Below the pieces are notes generated by a model. It saw only the letters and a program-made list of their open reading frames with translations. It searched no databases and was not told where the DNA came from. From assembly GCA_905479105.1 (NCBI GenBank), contig CAJQLE010000003.1, forward strand, positions 1 to 64,000: a stretch of 64,000 nucleotides of DNA, written 5' to 3'. The stretch comes from an uncultured Flavobacteriales bacterium. Its GTDB lineage: Bacteria > Bacteroidota > Bacteroidia > Flavobacteriales_G > Salibacteraceae. Both the position numbers and the translations under genes were made by a program. Of this stretch, positions 1,872 through 44,960 are shown in pieces (positions within the stretch are counted from its first letter, which is position 1; each line of letters begins with the position of its first letter).

Positions 1872-4265
1872 TTAACTACCGCACATTTCGCAATCGTCTG
1901 GGTTTTCCAGCGAACAAGCGATTTCAGCAAGGCGCTGTTCTTCGCTTTTTGCCTCAGACTTGGCTGCGTTTGGCTTAGCTGTTTCTAGTGCAGGCTCAGA
2001 TAATGTGCTTTTGTCTACAGTGAACTTAATTGCATCACGTGCTGCTTTCGTTCTTAAGTAATACATTCCTGTTTTCAATCCAGCCTTCCAACCGTAAAAG
2101 TGCATTGAAGTCAACTTAGCGAAATTGGCATCTTCCATGAAGATATTCAACGACTGGCTTTGATCAACATACGCTCCGCGGTCTGCAGAAAGATCAATGA
2201 TCACTTTTTGACTGATTTCCCAAGCAGTTTTGTACAATTCTTTGATGTTCTCTGGAATCTCATCGATGTTTTGAACTGATCCGTTTGAAGAGATCAACTT
2301 GTTTTTCAAGTTTTCATTCCAAATACCCAACTTAACCAAATCTCTCATCAAGTGCTTGTTTACTACTACAAACTCACCTGAAAGTGTTCTTCGGGTGTAG
2401 ATATTTGAAGTGTAAGGCTCAATGCACTCATTGTTTCCAAGGATTTGACTTGTAGATGCAGTAGGCATGGGAGCAAGCAACAATGAATTACGCACACCAT
2501 GCTTTTTCACTTCTTCTCTTAATACATCCCACTCCCAAAGATCAGTTGCTTCTACTCCCCAAAGGTCTTGTTGGAATTTACCTTCAGAAATTGGAGATCC
2601 TTTATAGCTTTCATATGTTCCGTCAATCTTCGCAAGATCTTTAGAAGCAGTTAAGGAAGCGTAATAAATGGTTTCGAAAATCTGCTTGTTGAGCAACTTA
2701 GCTTCAGGGCTGTCAAATGCATGACGCATTAAAATGAACGCATCTGCTAATCCTTGAACACCTAATCCGATTGGTCTGTGACGAAGGTTTGAATTCTTCG
2801 CTTCAGGCACGGGGTAATAATTGTTGTCAATGATCTTGTTTAAGTTTTTCGTTGCCACATAAGTGATCTCGAATAACTTGTTGAAGTCAAACTTCCCTTC
2901 TTTCACAAACATTGGAAGCGCAATAGACGCCAAGTTACATACCGCTACTTCATCAGGAGCAGTGTATTCCATGATTTCCGTACACAAGTTTGAAGACTTG
3001 ATGGTACCTAAGTTTTGCTGGTTTGATTTAGAGTTGGCAGCGTCCTTATAAAGCATGTAAGGTGTACCCGTCTCAATTTGAGACTCCATTATTTTGAACC
3101 AAAGCTCTTGGGCTTTGATGGTCTTCTTGCCCTTTCCTTCTTTTTCGTACTTCGTGTAAAGCTTCTCAAATTTTTCACCCCAAACGTCAGAAAGACCTGG
3201 ACACTCATCTGGACACATCAATGTCCAATCTCCACCTTCTTCCACGCGCTTCATGAACAAGTCTGGTGTCCACATTGCATAGAATAAATCGCGGGCACGG
3301 TTTTCTTCTTTACCGTGGTTTTTCTTCAAATCAAGAAAGTCGAAAACATCAGCATGCCATGGCTCGAGATAGATCGCAAATGAACCTTTACGCTTTCCTC
3401 CTCCTTGGTCAACATAGCGAGCAGTGTCATTGAATACTTTCAACATTGGAACGATGCCGTTGCTGGTTCCGTTTGTTCCTCTGATGTATGAGCCAGTAGC
3501 TCTAATGTTGTGAATAGACAATCCGATTCCTCCAGCAGATTGTGAAATTTTAGCACACTGTGTAAGTGTATCATAGATCCCGCTGATGCTATCATCTTTT
3601 GTAGTCAATAGGAAGCATGACGACATCTGAGGCTTTGGAGTGCCTGCATTAAATAATGTTGGTGTTGCATGCGTAAACCATTTTTGACTCATTAAGTCAT
3701 AGGTCTCAATAGCCGCATCAATATCTTCTTTGTGAATACCGATTGAAACGCGCATCAACATGTGTTGTGGACGTTCAGCCAGCTTGTTATTCATCTTCAA
3801 AAGGTATGAACGCTCTAAGGTTTTGAAACCAAAGAAGTCATATCCAAAGTCGCGATCATAGATGATGTGACTATCCAACATTTCCGCATTTTCTTGGATG
3901 ATTTTGTGCACGTCATCAGCGATCAAAGCTGCTTTTTTGTTGGTCTTCGGATCAACATAGGTATACAGTGCCTCCATCGTTGCTGAGAACGACTTTTCAG
4001 TGTTCTTGTGCAAGTTAGACACCGCTATTCTTGACGCCAACAGGGCATAATCAGGATGCGTAGTAGTTAACGAAGCTGCAGTTTCAGCAGCAAGATCATC
4101 TAATTGCGTGGTTGCAACACCTTCGAAGATTCCTTCAATCACTCTCATAGAGATTTTGACGGCATCAACACTTGGGTGAAGACCATAGCAAAGTTTTTTA
4201 ATTCGTGCAGTGATCTTGTCGAACTTCACTGCTTCAGTTCTACCATCTCTTTTGACTACGTACAT
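1872..4265 (-). CDS. nrdA: Ribonucleoside-diphosphate reductase, alpha subunit (class Ia)
   Basis: Large catalytic subunit that reduces ribonucleoside diphosphates to deoxyribonucleotides; 797 residues, normal length. An ATP-cone (residues about 1-90, starting [18 protein letters not shown]) suggests dATP/ATP allosteric control. The active site is visible: the substrate-site cysteine in SSCFLL, the N-x-C-x-E triad in [10 protein letters not shown], the partner cysteine in VCNLASI, and the paired tyrosines of the radical path in [10 protein letters not shown]. The extreme C-terminus ends CEMCGS, the redox-shuttle cysteine pair. The start at 4265 gives the ATP-cone in full. It lies 44 bases after nrdB and is presumably cotranscribed with it. 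Confidence 0.98.
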
Positions 4266-4309
4266 GGCTTTTGGTTTAATTCAGGTTATTATAAAGGGAG
4301 GAGGTTATC

Positions 4310-5281
4310 TTAAAAATCTTCATCTAATTTGAATACTTGGCCTTCTGAGCCATTTGCAACACCAGATTTCTGATATTCAGCAACGCGCTTTTCAAAGAAG
4401 TTGGTCTTGCCTTGTAGGCTGATCATTTCCATGAATTCGAATGGGTTTTCAGATTTGTAAACCTTATCGCATCCGAGTTCAGAAAGTAATCTGTCTGCTA
4501 CAAACTCAATGTATTGCTGCATCAATGTTGCATTCATTCCAATCAATGAAACTGGAATAGCATCCGTCACGAATTCTTTTTCAATTTCAACAGCATCAGT
4601 AATGATCTTGGTTACCGTTTCTTTAGGAAGCTTATTTACTACGTGCTCATTATAAAGCAAGCAAGCAAAATCACAGTGCATTCCTTCGTCACGAGAAATA
4701 AGCTCGTTAGAGAAACTCAATCCCGGCATCAAGCCGCGCTTCTTCAACCAGAAGATAGAGCAGAAAGATCCTGAGAAGAAAATACCTTCTACAGCTGCAA
4801 ATGCAATAAGGCGTTCCGCAAAAGATCCGTTTTCGATCCACTGCATTGCCCAATTTGCTTTTTCGGCAACACAAGGAATAGTATCAATGGCGTTAAGCAG
4901 TTTTGTCTTCTCTTTGCCGTCCTTAATATAGGTATCGATTAAAAGAGAGTAGGTTTCTGAATGAATGTTTTCCATTGCGATTTGAAAACCGTAGAAAAAC
5001 TTCGCCTCTGTATATTGAACTTCTGCCAGAAAGTTCTCCGCTAAATTTTCATTTACGATGCCATCGCTGGCAGCAAAAAATGCCAAAACATGTTTGATGA
5101 AGTAACGCTCATCATCGTTCAATTTATTTTCCCAATCGTGAAGGTCTGGACCCAGGTCAATTTCTTCTGCTGTCCAAAAGCTTGCCTCTGACTTTTTATA
5201 AAATGCCCAAATGTCATCATGCTTAATAGGAAACAGTACAAATCTGTTTGGATCTTCTTTTAAAATTGGTTCTTCAGTCAT
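4310..5281 (-). CDS. nrdB: Ribonucleoside-diphosphate reductase, beta subunit (class Ia)
   Basis: Small radical-generating subunit, 323 residues from the ATG at 5281. The reading frame extends to a GTG at 5320, but the ATG version ([14 protein letters not shown]) matches the family N-terminus better. Di-iron and radical residues are visible in [11 protein letters not shown] (Glu, His and the radical Tyr) and later in [10 protein letters not shown]. The sequence resembles the eukaryote-like class Ia group ([28 protein letters not shown]). It is the first gene of the nrdB-nrdA operon. A long AT-rich leader (5282-5727) precedes it. Confidence 0.97.
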
Positions 5282-5727: not shown

Positions 5728-6303
5728 CTAACCCATTTTATAGTACTCCTCTGCGGCCTCTTCTAAAGCTGCATACCACTGCTCACCGTACTTGCGGATC
5801 AAAGCGTCCTTCGTGTACTTAAAAACAGGCACTTTTAGCTCTTTTCCTAAACTGCATGCTGGACTACAAATATTCCACCTTTCATAGTTAACCGCTTCAA
5901 ATTCTGAGTAGCGTTTTGTCCGGATGGGATAGAGGTGACAAGAAATGGGTTTTCTGAAAGAAGTCTTCCCCTCTTTCCAAGCCAATTCAATGCCGCACAT
6001 CGCGGTTCCCTTTTCATCAAAAACAGTATAAGCACATTCTTTACCATCGCGCAATGGAGTAACCCACTCGCCATCGGTGTCTTTTACAGATGTACCCTTT
6101 TCAGAAACCGAGGTTTGACCTTCCGCTCTTATATATGATTTGAATTTTGGATATTCTTCTTCTATAATTTTCACTTCCTCATCTGTAAGAGGCGCACCGG
6201 CATCACCTTCCACGCAGCATGCTCCTTTGCATGCATTGAGGTCGCAAATGAAGGCCTCGTCAAGTACATCTGTAGAAATCAATTGGTCGTCTATCTGAAT
6301 CAT
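5728..6303 (-). CDS. DUF3109 family cysteine-rich protein
   Basis: 191 residues from the ATG at 6303; the frame continues to a TTG at 6345, but the family begins near MIQIDDQLIS. The family carries many conserved cysteines, seen here as CDLNACKGACC near the N-terminus, then CAYTVFD, AMCGIELAW, ISCHLYPIRTKRY and NICSPAC. They are expected to bind iron or zinc; the exact function is unknown. It is divergent from glyS with 68 bases between starts. A decayed second copy of part of this gene lies at 21815-21934. Confidence 0.9.
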   Translation of the reverse strand: MIQIDDQLISTDVLDEAFICDLNACKGACCVEGDAGAPLTDEEVKIIEEEYPKFKSYIRAEGQTSVSEKGTSVKDTDGEWVTPLRDGKECAYTVFDEKGTAMCGIELAWKEGKTSFRKPISCHLYPIRTKRYSEFEAVNYERWNICSPACSLGKELKVPVFKYTKDALIRKYGEQWYAALEEAAEEYYKMG

Positions 6304-7892: not shown

Positions 7893-10461
7893 TCACCTGA
7901 ACCGTTCCATTTTGAACGGAAGATTGTTCTGAAGCACGACTTTGATAGCGAATGGTATAAAAATACACACCAGCAGAAGCGGGAATTCCATTTACAAAGC
8001 CGTCCCAAAAGGCAAGTACCTGATTTTTAGATGAGCTCACCATGTCATTGCTCACCATCAATTGACCCCAACGGTTATAAATGGAAAGCTTGATTTTTAC
8101 TTGATCGCAGCTGGACTGGACAGTGAAAATATCATTGATGCCATCTGCATTGGGTGTGATAATATTGGGCATTGTTATTTTACAATCGGAAGTATCGCAT
8201 TCATCACTAACTACATCAGTTGAAATTATTTTGACGCATTCATTAGCGGTGATGCTCACCACATATTCACCTTCTTCTGTAACGTAAATGAAGGATGAAG
8301 TATCGTTTGTACTCCAATTGTATCGGGCACTGTCGGTAGTCACATCAAGTAAGACACTATCGTTGGCGCACAAGATGTATTGAGGCAACAGCTCGGTTTC
8401 AATCTCAGGTTGAAAGCTTACGCTAATATCATGCGTGTCTGAACCACACACATTAAAGGCGATGAGCCGATAGGTTCCAGAATCATTCACCAAACGACTG
8501 CTTAGCAACACACTGTCGTTCCATACATAGTTTACGAGCGTATCGCTTTCTAAGGTGATGAACTGAGGCGGTTGATCACAATAAGCAGTATCGAAGGGCA
8601 AGTTGATGTTTGGCGCGGAGGTAAAAAACAGGGCAATGCTGTCGCTATCGGAGCCACAAGTATTTTGGGCGAGCAGTGTAACCGTTTGGGAAGTCGTTGC
8701 TTGAAAAGTGCTGCCACTTGATCCATCATTCCAAAGTACGGTTTGTGCAAAGCTCAAGTCGGGCTTAAGCGAAACCGAATCTCCAATACATGCGATGCTG
8801 TCTGACCCGAGATCGAAGCTCAATAAACTATCAATGCGCAGTACGAACGTATCTCGAAAAACTCCACACGCATTGGTGAGTGAATAACTGAATGTATTGG
8901 TCTCCAAAAACTGAACGTTCAAATCACTCTGCCCATCAGACCATTGAATCAATCCGCCTGTGTTGCTTAAATCGACCACAAGCGTATCACCTTCGCAAAT
9001 GGCGGTATCTGGCAACAGATCATTGACTTCAATGGGTTGAGAAACACACACATGCTGGATAATGGTGTCGGTAATGCTGCCATGCGTAAGCCAAAGGTGC
9101 AGCGGATGCTCGCCTGCTTGAGTAAATACATGCTCAATGGAATCGCCACTATACACCGCAGCCGTGTCGCCCGTTTCTGGGTCAAAGAATATCCAAGTGG
9201 CCGAGTCTGCACAACTCAAAAGATCGATCTGCGAAGTGTCATTGACACAAAATGCACGTGGACTGATGAGGCCATAGCGGTTGGTTGATACTTGATTGGT
9301 GATACCGCCTCCAATTTGTTGACTGAAGTTGACGGCATTTTCCAAGATTGTGACATTGCCATTTTTATCTATGGTTATTTCATCAAGTACCAAGTTGCCT
9401 GACACGTTAGGAGCTTTGTATATCTTTCCATCTATGCCCATTCTTATGCTTTCTGAGGGGGGGCTATTATAAATTACCTCTGATGTTGCAATGGCAGAAG
9501 AGTCATAAATGCTTAGGTCAAATACTTTTAATGTAGGATTAATTCTATCTCCTACCATGAGCATGTCTCCGCAGGGTGAAAACTCAAGTTTACCAGCATT
9601 CGTTGTAATATTTGGCGACATAGGTAACACTATAGGGTCCATAAGGACACCTGTGACCCTGTCAAACTTTGCTAAGAAAATGGCATAGCCCAATTGTGCA
9701 TTTGTATATTGGGTGGAGTAATAACTGGTCACTCCAGCAATTAGCTCCCCATTGGGTGAAAATTTCAAATCCTTAAATAGAAAACGATTATAAAACAAAG
9801 GGCTTTCTACTGGACTATTGCTTATTCCTTGTTCGGTTATTAAATATGATTGAAACGATGCTGGAGGAATTTCGCGTTGCGTCACAAGCCAGAAGTCTTT
9901 GTTGTTTGCATGGTGGGCAGCGGCAATTGGATAATTTGTTTGATTAGAGTCAAAGACAATATTTTTTTGGTTGGTCATGACATCCCCTAAACCACTATTG
10001 AGGTTCATATCTACCTTAGAATACAAGAGGGAAAGTACCAACGGATTTATGGGTTGTCCAAATTCACCCACACCAAAAGTGTTGAAAATGAAGAATAGTC
10101 CCGAATCTCCCGGTTGTGGCACAGCCAAACTTGCTTGCCATATAAATGATCTGTATATTAATTCAGTTCCGTTTGGCATTAACACATCATTTCCTGCCCA
10201 CACATTGCTGTCGTTAAAATAGAAAAGTAAGTTCCCAGATTCATCAGCAATAGATGATGTGCATTCTTCCAAATGAGTTATTGAGCTTGTATTTGGATAA
10301 GTACCGTAGCAGCTAAATACCAACGAGGCGTTTGTGCCAAAAGTCCAATGGGCATTTTGAAGCGGGTAGATTTGGGCCTGTAGTGGGATGCTATTGAGGA
10401 TTAATATATATTTAATAGCATTCAATACCCACTTGTATGAAAAAGCTTTTATTCTTTTCAA
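7885..10461 (-). CDS. Secreted protein with gliding-motility-associated C-terminal domain
   Basis: About 858 residues. A hydrophobic signal sequence (IKYILILNSIPLQAQ) is followed by a region with WD/propeller-like character (residues about 30-370), then several Ig/PKD-like repeats (each with phrases such as CGVFRDTFVL or CGSDSDSIALFF). The C-terminus is a CHU_C/TIGR04131-type domain (MPNIITPNADGINDIFTV, SIYNRWGQLMV, GVYFYTIRYQ), the usual tag for export by T9SS. The start is uncertain: no ATG is available; TTG at 10461 or TTG at 10425 are candidates, and the former overlaps the divergent gene by 25 bases. The gene lies between two copies of the glyS tail. Function unknown. Confidence 0.85.
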   Translation of the reverse strand: MKRIKAFSYKWVLNAIKYILILNSIPLQAQIYPLQNAHWTFGTNASLVFSCYGTYPNTSSITHLEECTSSIADESGNLLFYFNDSNVWAGNDVLMPNGTELIYRSFIWQASLAVPQPGDSGLFFIFNTFGVGEFGQPINPLVLSLLYSKVDMNLNSGLGDVMTNQKNIVFDSNQTNYPIAAAHHANNKDFWLVTQREIPPASFQSYLITEQGISNSPVESPLFYNRFLFKDLKFSPNGELIAGVTSYYSTQYTNAQLGYAIFLAKFDRVTGVLMDPIVLPMSPNITTNAGKLEFSPCGDMLMVGDRINPTLKVFDLSIYDSSAIATSEVIYNSPPSESIRMGIDGKIYKAPNVSGNLVLDEITIDKNGNVTILENAVNFSQQIGGGITNQVSTNRYGLISPRAFCVNDTSQIDLLSCADSATWIFFDPETGDTAAVYSGDSIEHVFTQAGEHPLHLWLTHGSITDTIIQHVCVSQPIEVNDLLPDTAICEGDTLVVDLSNTGGLIQWSDGQSDLNVQFLETNTFSYSLTNACGVFRDTFVLRIDSLLSFDLGSDSIACIGDSVSLKPDLSFAQTVLWNDGSSGSTFQATTSQTVTLLAQNTCGSDSDSIALFFTSAPNINLPFDTAYCDQPPQFITLESDTLVNYVWNDSVLLSSRLVNDSGTYRLIAFNVCGSDTHDISVSFQPEIETELLPQYILCANDSVLLDVTTDSARYNWSTNDTSSFIYVTEEGEYVVSITANECVKIISTDVVSDECDTSDCKITMPNIITPNADGINDIFTVQSSCDQVKIKLSIYNRWGQLMVSNDMVSSSKNQVLAFWDGFVNGIPASAGVYFYTIRYQSRASEQSSVQNGTVQVIR

Positions 10462-36724: not shown

Positions 36725-36740
36725 TGGAGTTTATAACATA

Positions 36741-36780
36741 AAAAACCCCCAAGTACATCTGTGCTTGGGGGTTTTTCTTT
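36741..36780. terminator. Strong terminator after superoxide dismutase
   Basis: Perfect 13-base arms AAAAACCCCCAAG and CTTGGGGGTTTTT, 10-base loop, T-rich end. Being symmetrical it could work in both directions and probably once served glmS too; the element at 36795 now separates it from glmS by 8 kb. Confidence 0.93.
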
Positions 36781-36794
36781 TCTAAAAGGTATGC

Positions 36795-36808
36795 TTATTC
36801 GACAGTGA
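36795..36808 (+). repeat. Left attachment site (attL)
   Basis: TTATTCGACAGTGA matches the right end TTATTCGACGGTCA at 12 of 14 bases. The first nine bases are the reverse complement of the glmS terminal codons including its stop. GGTGGGT at 36822-36828 would be the inward arm of the reconstructed attP. Confidence 0.8.
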
Positions 36809-37127
36809 AAAACATATTACAGGTGGGTACACTCCCTACCTGACTTTCAATGTTTTAATCCAATCAAATATCTTCTCAGTACATCAATACAAACGTGAAT
36901 ATCCCGAAAGGGAAATTATTAGAAAAAAGGTATGGGAACTCCACAAAGAAGGTTGGGGATACACTAAAATTCATCGATACCTGAAGAACAATGGGTTTGA
37001 GGTAGGGAATAGTAGAACTACAGTAGATTCTATGATTAAGAAGATGAAAAAGAGATATTTCGTCACCAAAAGGGAGTTTTCACTATGGAAGTATGTGGAT
37101 TTCAAAATCAAATTCTTTAGAAGGTAA
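36795..37127 (+). pseudogene. Detached C-terminal part of the large serine recombinase
   Basis: The frame is open for 110 codons to a TAA at 37125-37127 and has no usable start of its own at the left. It begins LFDSEKHITGGY, exactly the frame in which the recombinase gene reaches the same LFD codons at 44883. Residues VWELHKEGWGYTKIHRYL then SRTTVDSMIKKMKK look like a helix-turn-helix, and the chain ends basic (FKIKFFRR). In the excised circle the two pieces would form one protein of about 665 residues. Calling it a pseudogene is formal: it is probably half of a gene that is split only while integrated. Confidence 0.75.
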
Positions 37128-37713
37128 TCTCAATTTTAAATTACTCAGGTTAGGATGAGGAGGGATTAGGAATCACTCAAAAAATCTAACTTCCTTCAAT
37201 CCCTTTCTACCCGATTGAATATATCACAGAAATTATTTTGAGAAATAATGTGATTTTCTATCGTTTAAAGTTTCAGAACCATATTTATAGGTAACCTAAG
37301 TGTTCCAATCATAGGGATAAAACACTTATCACCCATGAGGGACGAAAGTTAGTTAGTGGGAAAGACATCGGATAGTAATCTGTAGGATTGAAATAATATC
37401 CGAACATAACGGATGAGGTTTCTCCGGTAGGGTTAAAAATGGTTATGGTATAAGATAGATATGGGGGATTCAAACTGACTGGTCTAATCGAAATCCAATA
37501 ACTGAAGAATGGGTTCATTCATTAACGGATACACAAATCTGTAAGGGGTTTGGTGTATCTAATTGATAATAGGTTAATGAATAATAACTGGAATGTTGAG
37601 GATTCACACTACCGTATGAATCACTCAACGATGAGATGATTCTGATGAAATCAGAACCACTCATCATACTTGATTAAATACTGAAAGATTATATAACAAA
37701 GGAGAATAACAAT
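37128..37713. other. Non-coding left region of the element with hairpin
   Basis: No convincing gene in 586 bases; a reverse 69-codon frame (37309-37518) has no family resemblance. A long hairpin lies at 37630-37665: GATGAG and CTCATC enclose perfect TTCTGAT / ATCAGAA arms with a GAA loop. It precedes the first element gene and may be a regulatory leader or a protein-binding site. Confidence 0.4.
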
Positions 37714-37965
37714 ATGAAGAAAGATACAGGTCAACTACATGGGGAGTTAATGAACTCACTCTATCAATTAACAAAGGATATTGGAATACACCTCCCCCCG
37801 GACAAAATAGAACCCACTACAACCTCTCTAATAGATGTCTTCATTAACTACGAGAGATACAGAAAGTCTATTCAGGAAGGTGGTTTGAAAGTACTGGAGA
37901 AAGGATTTGGTCAATTACCAATAGAAGTTCAGAACAAGATAAAAGAACAGTATGAGAGAAGATAA
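37714..37965 (+). CDS. Element protein of unknown function
   Basis: 83 residues, mostly helical by composition (LMNSLYQLTKDIGIHLPPDK near the start, IQEGGLKVLEKGFGQLP later). An unusual feature here is a Shine-Dalgarno GGAG at 37701-37704, nine bases before the ATG, which most genes in the window lack. Its 3' end overlaps the first possible start of the next gene. First gene of a three-gene forward operon. Confidence 0.7.
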   Translation: MKKDTGQLHGELMNSLYQLTKDIGIHLPPDKIEPTTTSLIDVFINYERYRKSIQEGGLKVLEKGFGQLPIEVQNKIKEQYERR

Positions 37966-37969
37966 ACTA

Positions 37970-38197
37970 ATGACTAAATATGAAGTGATGGATTACCTCA
38001 ACATCAGTAGAAGACATTTTGAGAAATTGGTAACTGAAGAAAACCTACCAATAATTAAAATAACTCAGAATAAGAGGTATATGAGGTTATCTGACCTCAA
38101 TAGGTATATGAATACTAAAATGGTAAATAAACCTCAGGAGGTCAACCAAGAATCACAACCTGATTTCGAATGGAACAACATATGGAGTAAGAAATGA
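37970..38197 (+). CDS. Excisionase-like helix-turn-helix protein
   Basis: 75 residues from the ATG at 37970; an in-frame ATG at 37952 would add six residues. MTKYEVMDYLNISRRHFEKL then ITQNKRYMRLSDLNRYM is the MerR/excisionase (HTH_17) winged-helix pattern. Such small proteins bind att-site DNA and steer recombinases toward excision. Its place near the left end fits a directionality factor for the serine recombinases, although those factors are diverse and this role is inferred. The stop overlaps the next ATG (ATGA). Confidence 0.75.
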   Translation: MTKYEVMDYLNISRRHFEKLVTEENLPIIKITQNKRYMRLSDLNRYMNTKMVNKPQEVNQESQPDFEWNNIWSKK

Positions 38198-38694
38198 GAT
38201 TAAATGAATTCAAATTTGAGAACGACATAGAATCTAAGATTGATGAGTTTGGAATACTATCAGATAAGATTGATAAAGTAAAGATGGAACTGAGTGAACT
38301 TTCAAACCGATACAAAGAGATTGAAGGAGAGTTACGACCCATCTTAGAACAACTCCACATTCAGAATATGAAATCCATTCAGACGAAGAAGTACTTGGTA
38401 ACCCTGAAGAGAATGGGGTACAATAGAGATAACTTCAAATACAAAGAGAGTTTTGAAGAATCACTTACCAGAGTGAATCAACAAACCAAAAAGGTATTGG
38501 AAGATATCTTACAATCCACTAAAACGGTAAGTAGAGTTGTATCTACTATTGGTGTTCAGAGAATGGATGAAATCTCTTTAAAATCAATGTTGAAGAAGTT
38601 GGTATCTCCCTTTAAGAAACTCTTCAGTAGGTTGAAGATGAATACAAAGAGTATGAATGATTTGAATGGGGTGTTGAAGAGGATGGTGGGTTAG
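38194..38694 (+). CDS. Coiled-coil element protein of unknown function
   Basis: 166 residues. The first 70 are a strong coiled coil (DEFGILSDKIDKVKMELSEL); the remainder is basic and helical, ending MNDLNGVLKRMVG. No family recognised. Coupled to the excisionase-like gene by ATGA overlap, and its last four bases overlap the convergent GIY-YIG gene. Confidence 0.65.
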   Translation: MRLNEFKFENDIESKIDEFGILSDKIDKVKMELSELSNRYKEIEGELRPILEQLHIQNMKSIQTKKYLVTLKRMGYNRDNFKYKESFEESLTRVNQQTKKVLEDILQSTKTVSRVVSTIGVQRMDEISLKSMLKKLVSPFKKLFSRLKMNTKSMNDLNGVLKRMVG

Positions 38695-39176
38695 AATGAC
38701 TTATTCCATATGGGTAATTTCTTTGAATCACTATAAATCCACTGAAGTATTTGAGACTCCAAGAATGTTGGGGATACCTCATTTTTTATTTTAAATATTG
38801 TAACCGTTATAGAATCAATACTTTCCTTTTTCATTTCAGATTTAAAAAATTCTGAAGAACTTACATCTTGACCATCTTCATCCTTCTTTCTAGAAGAAAC
38901 TAGTCTTTTACGAATATCATAACCCCCATTACCATATTCACCATTATCCAGTCTTTTAATTTGACCAGACATTCCCACATAGAGTATTTCCTTGGATTCT
39001 GTATCACTAATGATGTAGACACCATGAAAACCAATAGAAACCTTCTCTCTAATTATTGAGTTATAATTTATGGACCTACCATTTCGTCTAAAATCAGTGA
39101 TTGAAATATCAAATGAATCTTGACTTACAAACCAATTCTTACTTCTCTGAACGATTGAGTTAAGATGTATTTTCAA
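38691..39176 (-). CDS. GIY-YIG nuclease-domain protein
   Basis: 161 residues. The GIY-YIG signature appears as GFHGVYIISD and EILYVGMSGQ, followed by the catalytic Arg region GGYDIRKRLVSS, the metal-binding Glu in FLESQILQW and the terminal Asn in PIWNKSF. All key residues of the fold are present, so nuclease activity is plausible. Residues 1-50 form a short N-terminal domain of unknown type. The start overlaps the stop of the coiled-coil gene (ATGA), so both are made together, suggesting a working pair. Confidence 0.75.
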   Translation of the reverse strand: MKIHLNSIVQRSKNWFVSQDSFDISITDFRRNGRSINYNSIIREKVSIGFHGVYIISDTESKEILYVGMSGQIKRLDNGEYGNGGYDIRKRLVSSRKKDEDGQDVSSSEFFKSEMKKESIDSITVTIFKIKNEVSPTFLESQILQWIYSDSKKLPIWNKSF

Positions 39177-40165
39177 CCTCTTAAACTCTTTGTATTCTGA
39201 TTGATTTTGTACATCTGGTAGGTTTGGATACCGGTTAGAAGGTTATTGGTTTGGATTGAAGAGTTTATACTAGACAATTCCGTTGTTAAAGATTTTTCTA
39301 ATCCGTAAAAAGACTCATCTATTACAAATGATAAGTTGTCCAATTGACTAACAAGTTTTGACTCCATACTTTCTATTGACTTCAATAATCCATTCATTCC
39401 AGATTCTATTTTGGACAGATTAACGTTGACTTTTTCTATGTTATCATTTAGGTCGTTTAATTTCCCAGAAATGTCGTTCTCATAATTACTATTGAATATA
39501 TTTAATTTGTCAAACTTCTCGTACGTCTCAAAACATACAATTAAATCGTCTTCAACTATAGACGTAATCATTTTAAGAGAATGTAACAATAAAATTTGAT
39601 AGGAATAAATTTGTTTATTTAGGGTCTGTAGTCGACTATTTAATTGTTTCTCATTTTTCACCCTTCTGGTTAAGACAAAAAACTTTTGAATATTATCTCT
39701 TTTAGTTTTTAGATAGTTGGATAACTTAACAAAATCTTGAACACTTATATTATCTATATTATTTATTTTTTGTTGATGTTTCTTGACTAAATTGAGTAGG
39801 TCATCGTTAATCTCTACAATGTCAATAATTCCATTACTATCTTTGTCTAATCTTTTAAGTGTTTCGTTTTTTTCATTAAAGAACTTCTCTTTTCTTATTC
39901 TTTTTTCTTCCTTTTGTTTTTCTTCGTTTTGAATTTGTTTGACTTTCCTTAGTCTTTCTTTCTCTTTCTTCTCCTTTTGAAGTCTTTCCTCTTCTTCTTT
40001 CTGAAGTCTTTCTTTCTCTCTCTTCTCCTTTTGAAGTCTTTCCTCTTCTTCTTTCTGAAGTCTTTCTTTCTCTCTCTTCTCCTTTTGAAGTCTTTCCTCT
40101 TCTTCTTTCTGAAGTCTTTCTTTCTCTTCTTTGTTAGAACCGAACAGTGATTTGAATATCGACAT
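39173..40165 (-). CDS. Coiled-coil protein with EF-hand-like loop, partner of GIY-YIG nuclease
   Basis: 330 residues. Residues about 10-75 are a charged helix built of 18-residue repeats (KEEEERLQKEKREKERLQ). Then comes an EF-hand-like calcium loop LDKDSNGIIDIVEIND (about 112-127). The central part is helical, and the C-terminal 120 residues are a coiled coil (LNDLNDNIEKVNVNLSKIES). It lacks a signal peptide. A TAATTTTG -7 box lies at 40201-40194 upstream. As cargo of a mobile element and coupled to a nuclease, it could be a sensor or scaffold of a defence module; this is inference. Confidence 0.7.
   Translation of the reverse strand: MSIFKSLFGSNKEEKERLQKEEEERLQKEKREKERLQKEEEERLQKEKREKERLQKEEEERLQKEKKEKERLRKVKQIQNEEKQKEEKRIRKEKFFNEKNETLKRLDKDSNGIIDIVEINDDLLNLVKKHQQKINNIDNISVQDFVKLSNYLKTKRDNIQKFFVLTRRVKNEKQLNSRLQTLNKQIYSYQILLLHSLKMITSIVEDDLIVCFETYEKFDKLNIFNSNYENDISGKLNDLNDNIEKVNVNLSKIESGMNGLLKSIESMESKLVSQLDNLSFVIDESFYGLEKSLTTELSSINSSIQTNNLLTGIQTYQMYKINQNTKSLRG
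39969..40130. repeat. Three tandem 54-base repeats
   Basis: The unit beginning CTTCTCCTTTTGAAGTC occurs at 39969, 40023 and 40077, almost identical. It encodes the 18-residue charged-helix repeats of the preceding feature. Near-identity suggests recent expansion and possible length variation. Confidence 0.9.
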
Positions 40166-40284
40166 ATGTTAGTTTTTGATAATTAATTCATCTCAAAATT
40201 AGGAAAACAATGATATAATAGAAAATAAACCTTGATTCTGAGGACGAAGTTCCGTAAATTAAAAACGTTAAAATTAACTTACAT

Positions 40285-40473
40285 ATGAGTTCAAAACGAA
40301 GAAGAAAAGAAACTAAACAATTGAGAGATTCATACCCAACTGTTACACTGAAGGAATTGGAAGAAAAAGGTGAAGTCCCTAAATACTTTCACCTATCCGA
40401 TTGGGTAGACATGAAGGAGTACCAACTCGAAAACAAAACTGATTGGTGGAAGAAGATGAGTGAATCCAACTAA
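40285..40473 (+). CDS. Small element protein of unknown function
   Basis: 62 residues, very basic at the start (SSKRRRKETKQLRD) and Trp-rich at the end (HLSDWVDMKEYQL, TDWWKKM). No family recognised. It is divergent from the coiled-coil/GIY-YIG operon with 119 bases between starts, so it could be a regulator of that pair. Confidence 0.5.
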   Translation: MSSKRRRKETKQLRDSYPTVTLKELEEKGEVPKYFHLSDWVDMKEYQLENKTDWWKKMSESN

Positions 40474-40576
40474 GGGGGTGGGGGTATTTTCTTGTAATCC
40501 CATTCAAACCTTTGTATATAAGTCTGAACTTATCTCTTTTGTTGTCGAAGTCAGGTTTTTAAAGTTGGGGGAAACC

Positions 40577-41293
40577 TCAACTCCACTCTTTAAACTTATA
40601 ACCCATCTTGACTACCCAATCTTCAACCTTCTGAACACTATGGGTATCTCCTTTAAATGATTCCCAATTGGAATGGTATATCTGATACCTTGAATACGGT
40701 ACATATATTTCTCTCAGTTCTATCTTTAATCGATGAACAGAGACTTTTTCTGAACTCCAATCACCCCCTCTCAATCGTTGAATCATCTCTCGTGTCTTTT
40801 CCTCATCTCCAACGTATATATTCTTCAAATACTTCTTATCAGAACTCTCAATTCTTATATAAATCTTAGGATTAGATGTAAGTTCCTTTCTATCATATTG
40901 GGATTGAGTTCTTACTAACTCCTTGTTAAACCTTGATTGGTTCTTCACAGATTTTGATTTCCGATTTCTGAATCCAACAGAACAATAAAACTCAAACTTC
41001 TTGGATAGAAAACTGATGTTGGTATAGTTCTTCTTCATAATGGATTCCCATCCATCGTGGTAATCATCTCCTTTGATTTTACCCTTTACTATTTTGATTT
41101 CCTCTTTGAGTTTCTGAATCTGAGATTCTAACTTCTTTATTTTCTCATTTCCATCATGTATCCATCGATGGTTGTTTCTGTATGTCCTGTATGACTCTCT
41201 CTCTGATTCACTCAGATTATCAAATACCTCATCGGGGAGATAATCCATAAAGAATATATCTCCTTCACTTCTAAACTTCTTCTCTTTTTTCAT
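40577..41293 (-). CDS. Element protein of unknown function
   Basis: 238 residues, basic. A coiled coil at residues about 45-75 (KIKKLESQIQKLKEEIKIVK) is followed by a mixed region with many Lys and Tyr (SDKKYLKNIYVGDEEKTREM). The C-terminus is Trp-rich (VEDWVVKMGYKFKEWS). No family recognised. Its start is only 12 bases from the first 103-base repeat unit, so those repeats probably control it. Confidence 0.65.
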   Translation of the reverse strand: MKKEKKFRSEGDIFFMDYLPDEVFDNLSESERESYRTYRNNHRWIHDGNEKIKKLESQIQKLKEEIKIVKGKIKGDDYHDGWESIMKKNYTNISFLSKKFEFYCSVGFRNRKSKSVKNQSRFNKELVRTQSQYDRKELTSNPKIYIRIESSDKKYLKNIYVGDEEKTREMIQRLRGGDWSSEKVSVHRLKIELREIYVPYSRYQIYHSNWESFKGDTHSVQKVEDWVVKMGYKFKEWS

Positions 41294-41304
41294 AACTCTT
41301 ATAT

Positions 41305-41484
41305 GTGGTGGTTAAACACCAAATATAGCAAAATACCACCATAATTACACTATTATATTTACTATGTAATAATGAGAGATATGAATGTATTAAAAGAGAT
41401 TAAAAAAGTGGTGGTGAAAGGTTTATTGAGTGTAAATACCACCATAAATAGATGACGACCTTAGTAAGGTAATAATGAGAGATA
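41305..41484. repeat. Two 103-base-spaced repeat units between divergent genes
   Basis: Three blocks recur with exactly 103 bases between copies: GTGGTGG (41305, 41408), AAATACCACCATAA (41331, 41434) and GTAATAATGAGAGATA (41366, 41469). The sequence between blocks has diverged, so the blocks seem selected. GTGGTGG and CCACC are partly complementary, giving each unit a dyad. They look like operators or iterons. Confidence 0.75.
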
Positions 41485-41518
41485 AATTAAATAAGTAATC
41501 AATTAAAATTTAAATATT

Positions 41519-42064
41519 ATGAAAAATCAAAAATTAGAGGAGTTTGTAAACCGATTAGGTATGGAGTTAAAATTGAAACCCTCATTTGAAACAACAAATA
41601 TTGAGGGGGAATATTTTCTCAATGGGAAAGAAAAAAGTTATACAAAAAATGGAGTGTATCTTGGTAGAATTCAACATTTGAAATGGTACGTTTCTTTCAT
41701 AGAGTCAGATGATTCGAGTATCGAACTTTTCATGATAAAGGTTAATAAAAACTACCGAGGAAATGGAATAGGGATAGACTTAATCAATACCATTTTAAAT
41801 ATATCGGATGAGTTAAATATTAGTATTAAACTAATACCATATTCATTTGATACAGATTCGGATGAAGTCCAAAAGTGTTTAGATAATTTAAATTCCCCTA
41901 ATCAAGTATTAAAGATTTATAATCGGTACAAATAAAGAATAAAAAGAAATACTTATTCTCTGATTAGATGGTATGAAAGTTTTGGTTTTGAAAGAATTTA
42001 TCATTCAAATAGTCCCTACTTAATCTACCAAAGTGAGTATCAAAAATTAAAATTGGTAGGATAA
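41519..42064 (+). pseudogene. GNAT-family acetyltransferase interrupted by a stop codon
   Basis: The first 138 codons give a GNAT fold with the acetyl-CoA motif KVNKNYRGNGIGIDLINTIL. A TAA at 41933-41935 interrupts, but the same frame continues for 42 more codons with the expected last GNAT strand and helix, LIRWYESFGFERIYHS then SPYLIYQ. The final TAA overlaps the next ATG (TAATG), showing that the natural gene end is 42064. This is a single nonsense change, readthrough, or a sequencing error. Confidence 0.75.
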
Positions 42065-42516
42065 TGAAATCATACAACAACCCCCGAAACAACGGAACTC
42101 CATCAAAACGGAAATTCAAAGGATTCAACTTTTACATTCAATGTAATGGTAAGTTAAAACAATCCAATAGGGAAAGGTTATTAAAGGAATCAGAGGTTCA
42201 CCTTAATGAGGTGACCTCTTCCCTTCCTCAAACTATTGAAGAATTAATCCGAATGGGTGTAATATCCGAATTAGATTCATCCCTTACTGATTATGAATTA
42301 TTGGAACAATGGAATAAGATGTATGATGAGTACGGATATCTAATGAGTGAGTTCTCTGAACAATGGGAGAAAGAGAAGTTGGGAACCATACCACCTCAGA
42401 AAACTCCATCAATTGTTCAAACCCTATTGGACGAGATTGAATCGTTGAAGAAGAGAGTTTCTGAATTAGAGAAACTAAAATCACAACCTATCCCTTCAGG
42501 TTCAATCGACTTTTAA
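42064..42516 (+). CDS. Element protein with C-terminal coiled coil
   Basis: 150 residues. A basic start (RNNGTPSKRKFKGFNFYIQ), a middle acidic helical part (LTDYELLEQWNKMYDEYGYL) and a C-terminal coiled coil (LLDEIESLKKRVSELEKL). No family recognised. Coupled to the broken acetyltransferase gene by TAATG and 106 bases upstream of the recombinase pair. Confidence 0.65.
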   Translation: MKSYNNPRNNGTPSKRKFKGFNFYIQCNGKLKQSNRERLLKESEVHLNEVTSSLPQTIEELIRMGVISELDSSLTDYELLEQWNKMYDEYGYLMSEFSEQWEKEKLGTIPPQKTPSIVQTLLDEIESLKKRVSELEKLKSQPIPSGSIDF

Positions 42517-42622
42517 ATCAAAACTAAAACGGAAGTGATTCACACCGTTGGAAACCCCCGTAAATCCTTGATTTCCTGATAGTTTCCTGTTAATTTTAAA
42601 GTGAGATTAAAAAGGAAGTGAT

Positions 42623-43237
42623 ATGAGAGTTAAATACAATCGGGTTTCAACCCTTCAACAAAGTGGTGATAGATTCACTGTTGACCAAACAGATTACGAT
42701 TTAGTACTCTTCGATAAGGTTAGTGGTTCGATACCATTCAAACAAAGAGAAAAAGGAATTGAACTCACTAATCTTATTCAGAAGGATAAAATATCTGAGT
42801 TAGTAGTGGAAGAGTTTTCACGATTGGGTAGAAATACAGGAGATGTTATCCAAACCTTAGAGTGGTTAGAAGAGAATGAGGTGAATGTAGTGGTTCGAAA
42901 TCTTGGATTACAATCCCGACCCAACGGAAAGAAGAACCCAATTTGGAAGATGATATCATCGGTGATGAGTTCACTCTATGAAATGGAGTTAGAGAACATC
43001 AAAGAAAGAACGATGGTAGGACGACAGGTGTATGTTCAAAAAGGTGGAAAGTTGGGAAGACCAGAAGGAACATCTGAATCAATGAAACGATTTATGGAGA
43101 AACCTAAGAACAAAGAGATATTCAAACTCTTACAACGTGGTTTGAAATACTCAGAGATTCAGAAGGTAGTTGGGTGTTCACCAAAAACAATTAAGAAAGT
43201 AAAAGAACAAATGAAATATGAAGAAAATAATATTTAA
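42623..43237 (+). CDS. Small serine recombinase (resolvase/invertase type)
   Basis: 204 residues. The catalytic Ser is in YNRVSTLQQSG; the conserved arginines are in EEFSRLGRNTGDV. A long dimer helix follows (SSLYEMELENIKERTMVGR), and the C-terminus is a helix-turn-helix (LKYSEIQKVVGCSPKTIKKV). AGGAAG at 42613-42618 is a good Shine-Dalgarno. It overlaps the large recombinase gene by 20 bases, so both are cotranslated. Tandem serine recombinases recall the CcrA/CcrB pair, but this one is of the small type and may act as partner, resolvase or regulator. Confidence 0.88.
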   Translation: MRVKYNRVSTLQQSGDRFTVDQTDYDLVLFDKVSGSIPFKQREKGIELTNLIQKDKISELVVEEFSRLGRNTGDVIQTLEWLEENEVNVVVRNLGLQSRPNGKKNPIWKMISSVMSSLYEMELENIKERTMVGRQVYVQKGGKLGRPEGTSESMKRFMEKPKNKEIFKLLQRGLKYSEIQKVVGCSPKTIKKVKEQMKYEENNI

Positions 43238-44960
43238 CGATAATCCAGAGAATACTCTCTATGTGTACTGTAGAGTTTCAACTTCAGGTCAAGAGAAAGA
43301 TGGGAGTTCGTTGGATGTACAAAAGAATAGAGGTATAAAGTTTTCTGAGAAATTGGGTTTAAATCCAATCGTGATATCAGAACAAGGAAGTGGATTACAA
43401 CCTTACATACCAAAAACTAATGAGAAAGGTAAACCAGAAGGAAGACCTTTATTTACTGAACTCATTGATGGTATTGAAGATAGTTTGGTGATGAACATTT
43501 GGGTAGATGATGATACTCGATTAACAAGAAACGATACAGACCTTCAGTTTCTCCATCTTACTATGAAACAAAGAGGAGTAAAACTATTTGTTGGTAGTTC
43601 TATGGAACCTAAAAAGTGGGATTGGACAACAGATTTAGTTGATACGATTATAACTAAGGTCAACCAACAACAAATCAGAATCCAAGTTAGAAAGAGTATC
43701 CGTTCAAAACGAAAGTTATTTTCTGATGGATGTTATATGAAAGGTGACCCACCATTCGGGTATAAACTGGAGAACAAAAGATTAGTTCCTGATGAGGATA
43801 GAAAAGAATGGGTACAAAAGATTTATAGATGGTATGATGATGGAATGACCACAACCCAAATTCAAAAGATACTATTTGAAAACTCCATTTTTCCACCTAG
43901 GTATAGTATATCTAATAACAAGTGGTTCCCATTAGAAACTATCGTAAACATTCTTTCCAATCAAAATTACATTGGTATAGATGTATATGGTGACTTAACC
44001 AACCAGTGTCCACCATTGGTTGATAGAAGAATCTTTGATTCAGTACAGAAGAAAATCTCTGATAAGAAAGGTTCTAAAATTGAAGTTAAACACGATGGTT
44101 TGTTGAAGAACATATTAAAGTGTCCCGACAGAAAGATGATGACTGTATTAGGTGTTAAGAAACACAGGAAACACCCTCTATATACTTGTGGTCATAGAGA
44201 GAGGTCGTATAAAAAGAGAAGTACCAATGATTGTCCAATCAAGAAATCTCTTCAGGTGGAACTGTTAGATGAGTATATATGGAATCTATTCATTGATGTG
44301 ATGAAGGACTCCAAAACAATCAGAGAGAAGACGAAAAAGGAACTTATAGGGAATCAAAACACCTATTCCATTAGAAGTATCAACAATAGAATTAAACGAC
44401 TTCAAAAGGAGTTAAATGGTTTGAATGAGAGAAGGTTGGAGTTAGATAAGAAGTTCTACATCAATGAAATCCCCAAGAAGAACTATCAAGTTCTTTCGGA
44501 TTCTATAACTGAAAAGGAGACATCAATAGAATCTCAGATTAAAGTTGAGGAACTCAAAATCAAACAACTCAGAAGTGATGAACAATGGATTGATTGGTTG
44601 GATGTTCACTTTAACCGATGGGAAGAAAAACGAAACCGAACCGAACTGAAGGAAAAGAAGAAGGTACTCAGTGAGTACATCCACGAAATCATGGTGAAAG
44701 ATTATGATGATTCAACAAAGGAACATCACATTGAAATTCACTTCAGAATTCCTATCATAAATGACAAAATTCACATTGATAGGAACAAAGATGGTAGTAT
44801 TTCGAGGGATAAGAAGGGTCTTCGGAAATATAAAGTATTAGAGGGAGAGGGGAGTTTGAACAACCCTCTCACCCACCAGAAATTATTCGACGGTCACACT
44901 CTTCGCCAAATTTCTTGGTTGATCTACGTTGCAACCTCTCATTACAGCGATATGGTATGA
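43218..44960 (+). CDS. Large serine recombinase (integrase), C-terminus rewritten at attR
   Basis: 580 residues as read in the integrated state. Resolvase domain (about 12-160) with catalytic Ser in YCRVSTSGQEKDGSS and Arg in DDDTRLTRNDTDL. Recombinase domain (about 165-290, MKGDPPFGYKLENKRLV, SNQNYIGIDVY). A zinc-ribbon-like part has an incomplete first knuckle (ILKCPDRKM, then YTCGHRER). A coiled coil spans about 385-455. The last 25 residues after position 555 are translated antisense from glmS and cannot be the native tail. Joining 44882 to 36795 keeps the frame and adds 110 codons. It is presumably the integrase of this element. Confidence 0.9.
   Translation: MKKIIFNDNPENTLYVYCRVSTSGQEKDGSSLDVQKNRGIKFSEKLGLNPIVISEQGSGLQPYIPKTNEKGKPEGRPLFTELIDGIEDSLVMNIWVDDDTRLTRNDTDLQFLHLTMKQRGVKLFVGSSMEPKKWDWTTDLVDTIITKVNQQQIRIQVRKSIRSKRKLFSDGCYMKGDPPFGYKLENKRLVPDEDRKEWVQKIYRWYDDGMTTTQIQKILFENSIFPPRYSISNNKWFPLETIVNILSNQNYIGIDVYGDLTNQCPPLVDRRIFDSVQKKISDKKGSKIEVKHDGLLKNILKCPDRKMMTVLGVKKHRKHPLYTCGHRERSYKKRSTNDCPIKKSLQVELLDEYIWNLFIDVMKDSKTIREKTKKELIGNQNTYSIRSINNRIKRLQKELNGLNERRLELDKKFYINEIPKKNYQVLSDSITEKETSIESQIKVEELKIKQLRSDEQWIDWLDVHFNRWEEKRNRTELKEKKKVLSEYIHEIMVKDYDDSTKEHHIEIHFRIPIINDKIHIDRNKDGSISRDKKGLRKYKVLEGEGSLNNPLTHQKLFDGHTLRQISWLIYVATSHYSDMV
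44871..44896 (+). repeat. Right attachment site (attR)
   Basis: ACCCACC (44871-44877), five bases, then TTATTCGACGGTCA. Left of GT (44893-44894) is element, right is glmS. Paired with the left end, ACCCACCAGAAAT and ATTACAGGTGGGT are inverted arms (11 of 13) centred on GT. Confidence 0.75.

Follow-up and report, generated by a model that had tools for sequence, protein, structure and literature searches.

The window analyzed here, 64,000 nt from an uncultured Flavobacteriales bacterium of the Salibacteraceae, contains a minus-strand gene pair coding for a helical protein with an EF-hand-type loop and a GIY-YIG-like nuclease. The initial annotation regarded the pair as cargo of an integrative element and as a possible antiphage module, which raises the question of whether the two genes form a functional unit and, if so, what purpose this unit serves.

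The gene pair and its integrative element

The partner gene (39173-40165, minus strand) is an ORF of 330 aa comprising a charged repeat helix, an EF-hand-type loop, a helical core, and the conserved C-terminal NNLLTGIQTYQMYKINQNTKSLR. The nuclease gene (38691-39176, minus strand) is an ORF of 161 aa whose frame overlaps that of the partner by 4 nt. This overlap had been described as ATGA but actually reads TTGA with the partner stop, and the nuclease was therefore assigned the TTG start at 39176, the sole start codon that its open frame offers ahead of the catalytic motif. The noted -7 box, TAATTTTG, starts 36 nt ahead of the partner start codon, but no TTTG was seen at the -33 distance upstream of the partner, and the promoter is thus weak evidence rather than a good one. 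By inspection, the partner has no signal peptide, consistent with the earlier description. A search of the window found no attC-like sites for the pair.

The pair is the cargo of an integrative element of ~8.2 kb (36725..44882) flanked by sodA and the glmS 3' end, whose bounds were inferred from two congeners (L042 and L038) with an empty junction, in which glmS is directly followed by sodA. The element genes include an HTH/excisionase-like gene (37952..38197, plus strand), a small serine resolvase (42623..43237, plus strand), and a large serine recombinase (43218..44960, plus strand) that ends in the glmS 3' end, together with a 62-aa ORF (MSSKxRRKETK...; 40285..40473, plus strand) that is a backbone gene common to sibling elements. 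The cargo slot is bordered by repeat A (38573..38693), which forms the 3' end of a 166-aa ORF and has two copies in L058 and others in G398 elements, and by repeat B (40440..40577), which is present in sibling elements. Congeneric elements have this backbone in common and hold different cargo between the two repeats, including a ParB-methyltransferase gene in G398. An Rfam search of the element gave no match.

Several observations concern the surroundings of these elements. Siblings with the same backbone genes differ in their recombinase, which is a tyrosine-type integrase in some and a large serine recombinase in others (L048, L077, and L078 versus the window and L031), and the glmS 3' end (window 44883) has been used repeatedly within the genus as the insertion site of elements of different content (G405, G395). 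In L061, the partner gene adjoins glmS. Three genomes carry truncated C-terminal halves of the partner directly at the end of an element or at an attachment site, next to glmS or a tRNA gene (G398, G395, and G826; L031:8610-9038, L032 about 7990-8105, and L112:5602-6063). In L058, the A-B unit is found twice (2619-2739, 2750-2889, 5927-6041, 6052-6144), and a remnant of the start of a PDC-S18-type effector lies between the first copy and the partner, an arrangement that resembles a decayed cassette array. Small proteins with VDYxNQSD-type repeats recur near the elements or partner genes (L032:8763-9092, L058:5681-5923, L077:9376-9708, L070:6245-6454).

The features originally described for the partner were largely recovered. 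The expandable charged helix corresponds to a tandem repeat (39951..40131, minus strand) with 3.4 copies of a 54-bp, 18-aa unit at 98%. The calcium-type loop DKDSNGIIDIVE (39812..39847, minus strand) exactly matches the 12-residue EF-hand pattern D-x-[DN]-x-[DNS]-G-x-[IV]-D-x-x-[ED], with helices on both sides in the predicted model as a single-loop EF-hand requires. This loop is kept in 13 of the 15 family members with a complete core, the last residue being A in L051, and is lost in L059 and L033. The core was predicted to be all-helical (mean pLDDT 74.6), with the loop between two helices; the helical bundle is the confidently modeled portion, and the long C-terminal coiled coil was modeled with low confidence, block pLDDT being 39-52 over the last 55 residues. 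Sequence and fold searches of the PDB with the partner returned chance helical matches only, and the core model had no significant relative there. Pfam searches with the window partner and ten relatives gave only weak coiled-coil and EF-hand models, and no PADLOC model matched the partner or the window nuclease, the best being ZorA3 at E 0.5 for the partner.

The nuclease had been credited with all the residues of an active GIY-YIG fold, and the ordered Tyr, Tyr, Arg, Glu, and Asn are indeed present in GVY (Y54), YVG (Y66), IRKRL (R89/R91), E140, and N158; they are also kept in the relative L002. Because its Pfam PF01541 score of 16.1 bits is under the gathering cutoff of 22.6, the protein was named GIY-YIG-like from its residues and profile instead of Pfam. 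In hhalign it was placed in the right register of a 16-sequence GIY-YIG profile with E 2.4e-4, at a probability of only 43% (controls, E 0.74 and 0.43), and a profile combining the window nuclease with two relatives aligned in register with T4 endonuclease II (2wsh) at an E of only 0.34. An insert separates YVG from the Arg helix. Judged from its sequence, the window nuclease is a divergent GIY-YIG-like protein with the catalytic residues kept.

Among 100 related genomes, the nuclease was found only in this one. Its relatives from 395 genomes of the phylum were mostly a sucD-linked Flavobacterium gene in which both catalytic tyrosines are replaced; of the others, one adjoins an McrBC-type pair and one lies within a type I RM operon. 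The sucD-adjacent gene (142 aa) is conserved in many Flavobacterium (L003, L005, L009, L012, L020), with F and M in place of Tyr. It gave a first impression of a housekeeping family, which was abandoned with the loss of both tyrosines, and it is possibly a retired nuclease with another role. A housekeeping identity of the window nuclease was also dropped, since the UvrC and short GIY-YIG genes of this genome are located at other sites and a PF01541 search at E 1e-6 did not retrieve the window gene. The window nuclease belongs to no known homing or DNA-repair GIY-YIG.

Coupled effectors and their exchange between loci

To place the pair in a wider setting, the partner family was collected from a scan of 84,980 species genomes, yielding 15 loci, an undercount because the scans were pattern-based; a few distant loci were added by profile searches. 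A contig under two names was counted once (G405 = L048, G398 = L060, G751 = L054, G822 = L049, and G859 = L051). Coupling was scored for the window and 14 loci with readable downstream sequence, and at 12 of these 15 the next gene begins -4 to +12 nt from the partner stop. The effectors at the 12 coupled loci comprise the GIY-YIG protein of the window; two HNH proteins (L052 and L055; weak Pfam scores, E 0.0087 and 0.041); two PD-(D/E)XK types, one of them NucS-like and matching the PADLOC candidate PDC-S18 (L060; L031:9035-9547; E 2.5e-76) and the other recognized by motif only (L050); a relative of deoxyinosine DNA glycosylase (L049; TIGR04274, E 6e-7); family X at four loci (L048, L051, L054, and L058); and other genes, non-nuclease neighbors, at two (L056 and L057). 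Six of the 12 effectors, namely the GIY-YIG, both HNH, glycosylase-like, NucS-like, and PD-(D/E)XK motif proteins, are apparently DNA-acting, with half of the effector assignments made from weak family scores or motifs. Family X has no recognized fold (AF2 pLDDT 47), and the description of the effectors as nucleases is therefore not extended to its four loci; it was found away from the partner in 0 of 287 other genomes, in a search run without a positive control. The effectors are 124-202 aa long and the partners are multidomain proteins of 330-750 aa.

The two genes were initially taken as a couple, and as a strict pair they do not hold together, for standalone homologs exist on both sides. 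In the nearest partner relative (G405), which is 65% identical and comes from a related element of the same genus, a different gene occupies the position of the GIY-YIG gene, and the nearest GIY-YIG relatives of the window nuclease come without such a partner gene. The exact combination occurred in this genome only, of nearly 500 searched, and partner relatives at L053, L061, L070, and L033 have no coupled effector. The broader idea of a partner-nuclease module carried as mobile cargo is strongly supported by the tight coupling of the family to several other effector families, some of which are apparently DNA-acting. A distant partner gene lies between nuo genes (L072:6627-8159); downstream of it come a 75-aa gene and an MNT nucleotidyltransferase that matches PDC-S09. 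Searches of phage, plasmid, and viral-contig sequences with the nuclease, the partner, and family X gave no matches. The host range is uncertain because many relatives are metagenome-assembled contigs, some doubtfully labeled, such as L049, which is named an actinobacterium.

Comparison of the loci by blastn revealed three exchangeable parts. Between L049 and L050, identity is 96.3% over the stretch that starts 35 nt before the partner and ends precisely at its stop codon, after which the two are unrelated, the former continuing with a deoxyinosine-glycosylase-like protein and the latter with a PD-(D/E)XK-like protein. Between the window and L048, a match of 72.5% begins ahead of the partner and ends at the stop codon, and a match of 78% resumes beyond the effector, whereas the effectors between these homologous stretches, GIY-YIG and family X, are non-homologous. 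Conversely, L051/L054 (90.9%) and L052/L055 (81%) have core and effector in common and differ at the N-terminus. The tree joined the window with L048 and L049 with L050 (100/99 support each), giving two well-supported sister pairs with different effectors. Cores and effectors showed omega values of 0.04-0.20, indicating purifying selection, and the dN/dS of the window partner against L048 was 0.095. The core protein is thus translationally coupled to the adjacent effector gene, and effector and N-terminal domain are exchanged independently between loci.

The carriers also differ. Five pairs are located within or next to attC-like sites of the integron type. The L054 pair sits exactly between attC-like hairpins at 4228-4361 and 5927-5984; hairpins of this kind adjoin the pairs of L051 and L052, those of L052 being upstream and next-cassette sites; and L049 and L050 have weaker candidates. 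An IntI-type integrase is encoded upstream in L049, its best model being TIGR02249 at E 1.3e-64, below the cutoff of that model. The marks of an integron gene cassette, attC-like sites on both sides and an integrase nearby, were found among the relatives and not in the window. The hairpins and integrase at these relatives therefore demonstrate that the same module uses both integrons and integrative elements, traveling in integron cassettes as well as in elements with site-specific recombinases.

Proposed function of the module and rival explanations

The best explanation of the pair is that it represents one form of an effector module that is built of two genes with exchangeable parts and is most probably directed against phages or other mobile elements; this reading has a probability of about one half. 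Swapped effectors in the same backbone, swapped N-termini, the coupling, the apparently DNA-acting effectors, and purifying selection were counted in favor of such a module; relatives without a coupled effector or with a non-nuclease neighbor, and the single occurrence of the window combination, were counted against it. A defensive role is suggested by the GIY-YIG relatives that adjoin an McrBC-type pair or are embedded in a type I RM operon, and by carriage in integron cassettes, which have been reported to hold many anti-phage systems in work cited in PMC13064858. The lack of a PADLOC match to the partner or the window nuclease weighs on the other side. The antiphage guess of the initial annotation has gained partial support: several coupled effectors are apparently DNA-acting, but no defense library matches the partner.

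In the proposed mechanism, the variable N-terminal domain, a charged and expandable helix in the window, would sense the trigger or localize the protein; the EF-hand loop may bind Ca2+ and thereby stabilize or gate the fold; and the C-terminal region would bind and control whichever effector the coupled gene encodes. Upon triggering, the GIY-YIG nuclease would nick or cut the DNA of the invader or, in an abortive response, of the host. A bolder and only tentative proposal is that of an undescribed Bacteroidota immune family, in which an EF-hand/helical-bundle adaptor, possibly Ca2+-gated, links exchangeable N-terminal sensors to any of several DNA-damaging effectors (GIY-YIG, HNH, PD-(D/E)XK, base-excising glycosylase, and family X) and is itself shuffled via integron cassettes and integrative elements. 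If true, this would represent a plug-and-play effector system and bring a protein with a Ca2+ loop into bacterial immunity. The natural partners that are nearly identical but have different enzymes would then serve as existing swap experiments for finding the docking surface, a question that L049/L050 and window/L048 make directly testable. In the open literature, neither an EF-hand protein in phage defense nor a description of this gene pair was found.

The main rival of the defense reading is a toxin-antitoxin or addiction module with a promiscuous antitoxin as in Panacea, in which the conserved partner core would neutralize many unrelated toxic nucleases and the pair would stabilize the element or integron array, with phage protection as a possible by-product. 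Toxin-antitoxin pairs are common in integron arrays and integrative elements, their usual layout places the partner first, with a small gene overlapping it downstream, and the effectors here are short (124-202 aa). One antitoxin domain with many toxins is also a described pattern (PMC10440598). The multidomain partner of 330-750 aa is, however, large for an antitoxin, and GIY-YIG relatives and the PDC-S18 type exist without the partner, as do partner genes without an effector, although these are distant relatives and the point is weak. The addiction module is considered rather unlikely, though more probable than the remaining alternatives; most of its predictions are common to the defense reading, and the two are not exclusive.

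Improbable, in turn, is mere hitch-hiking, in which the conserved 3' end of the partner would act solely as a hot spot of recombination or as a point where unrelated cargo genes dock, with no joint function. The break of homology at the partner stop codon and the truncated C-terminal pieces at element ends in G398, G395, and G826 would fit this explanation, but the repeated overlap or near-overlap of reading frames, the bias of the second gene toward DNA-acting proteins, the purifying selection on both genes, and the restriction of family X to the partner (0/287 other genomes, in the search lacking a positive control) argue otherwise. GIY-YIG enzymes are classic homing nucleases, and the pair resides in an integrative element, so that the nuclease might be a homing-type endonuclease or a helper of cassette or element transfer. 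This is very improbable: the corresponding position in relatives is taken by HNH, PD-(D/E)XK, or glycosylase-like genes, and some of these are in integron cassettes, which need only IntI. A homing identity was dropped, as the surroundings of the nuclease showed no intron, intein, or interrupted gene and the element carries its own recombinases.

Comparison with known systems

The proposed effector module resembles several described systems in part. CoCoNuTs, the coiled-coil nuclease tandems, are a branch of McrBC systems (PMC11090510) and likewise place a coiled-coil-rich protein in tandem with a nuclease; the window element lacks the McrB GTPase and McrC, for which reason a CoCoNuT identity was dropped, and PMC11090510 makes no mention of EF-hands or of GIY-YIG. 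The N-terminal 165 aa of PDC-S18 are matched (E 2.5e-76) by the partner-adjacent effector of G398 (L031:9035-9547), whereas the PADLOC model is longer (302 positions) and the G398 effector is shorter and partner-coupled. The window nuclease, whose profile with two relatives aligns in register with T4 endonuclease II (E 0.34 only), keeps the catalytic residues and differs from the GIY-YIG superfamily in its divergence, with the insert between YVG and the Arg helix and a score below the Pfam cutoff. An analogy in organization is provided by Panacea (PanA), a combinatorial toxin-antitoxin network linked to phage defense in which one antitoxin domain is combined with many toxins (PMC10440598), since here too a conserved partner domain occurs in two-gene operons with many unrelated effectors. 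Pfam searches gave no PanA-type domain in the window partner or ten relatives, and the effectors of the present family lean toward DNA-acting enzymes.
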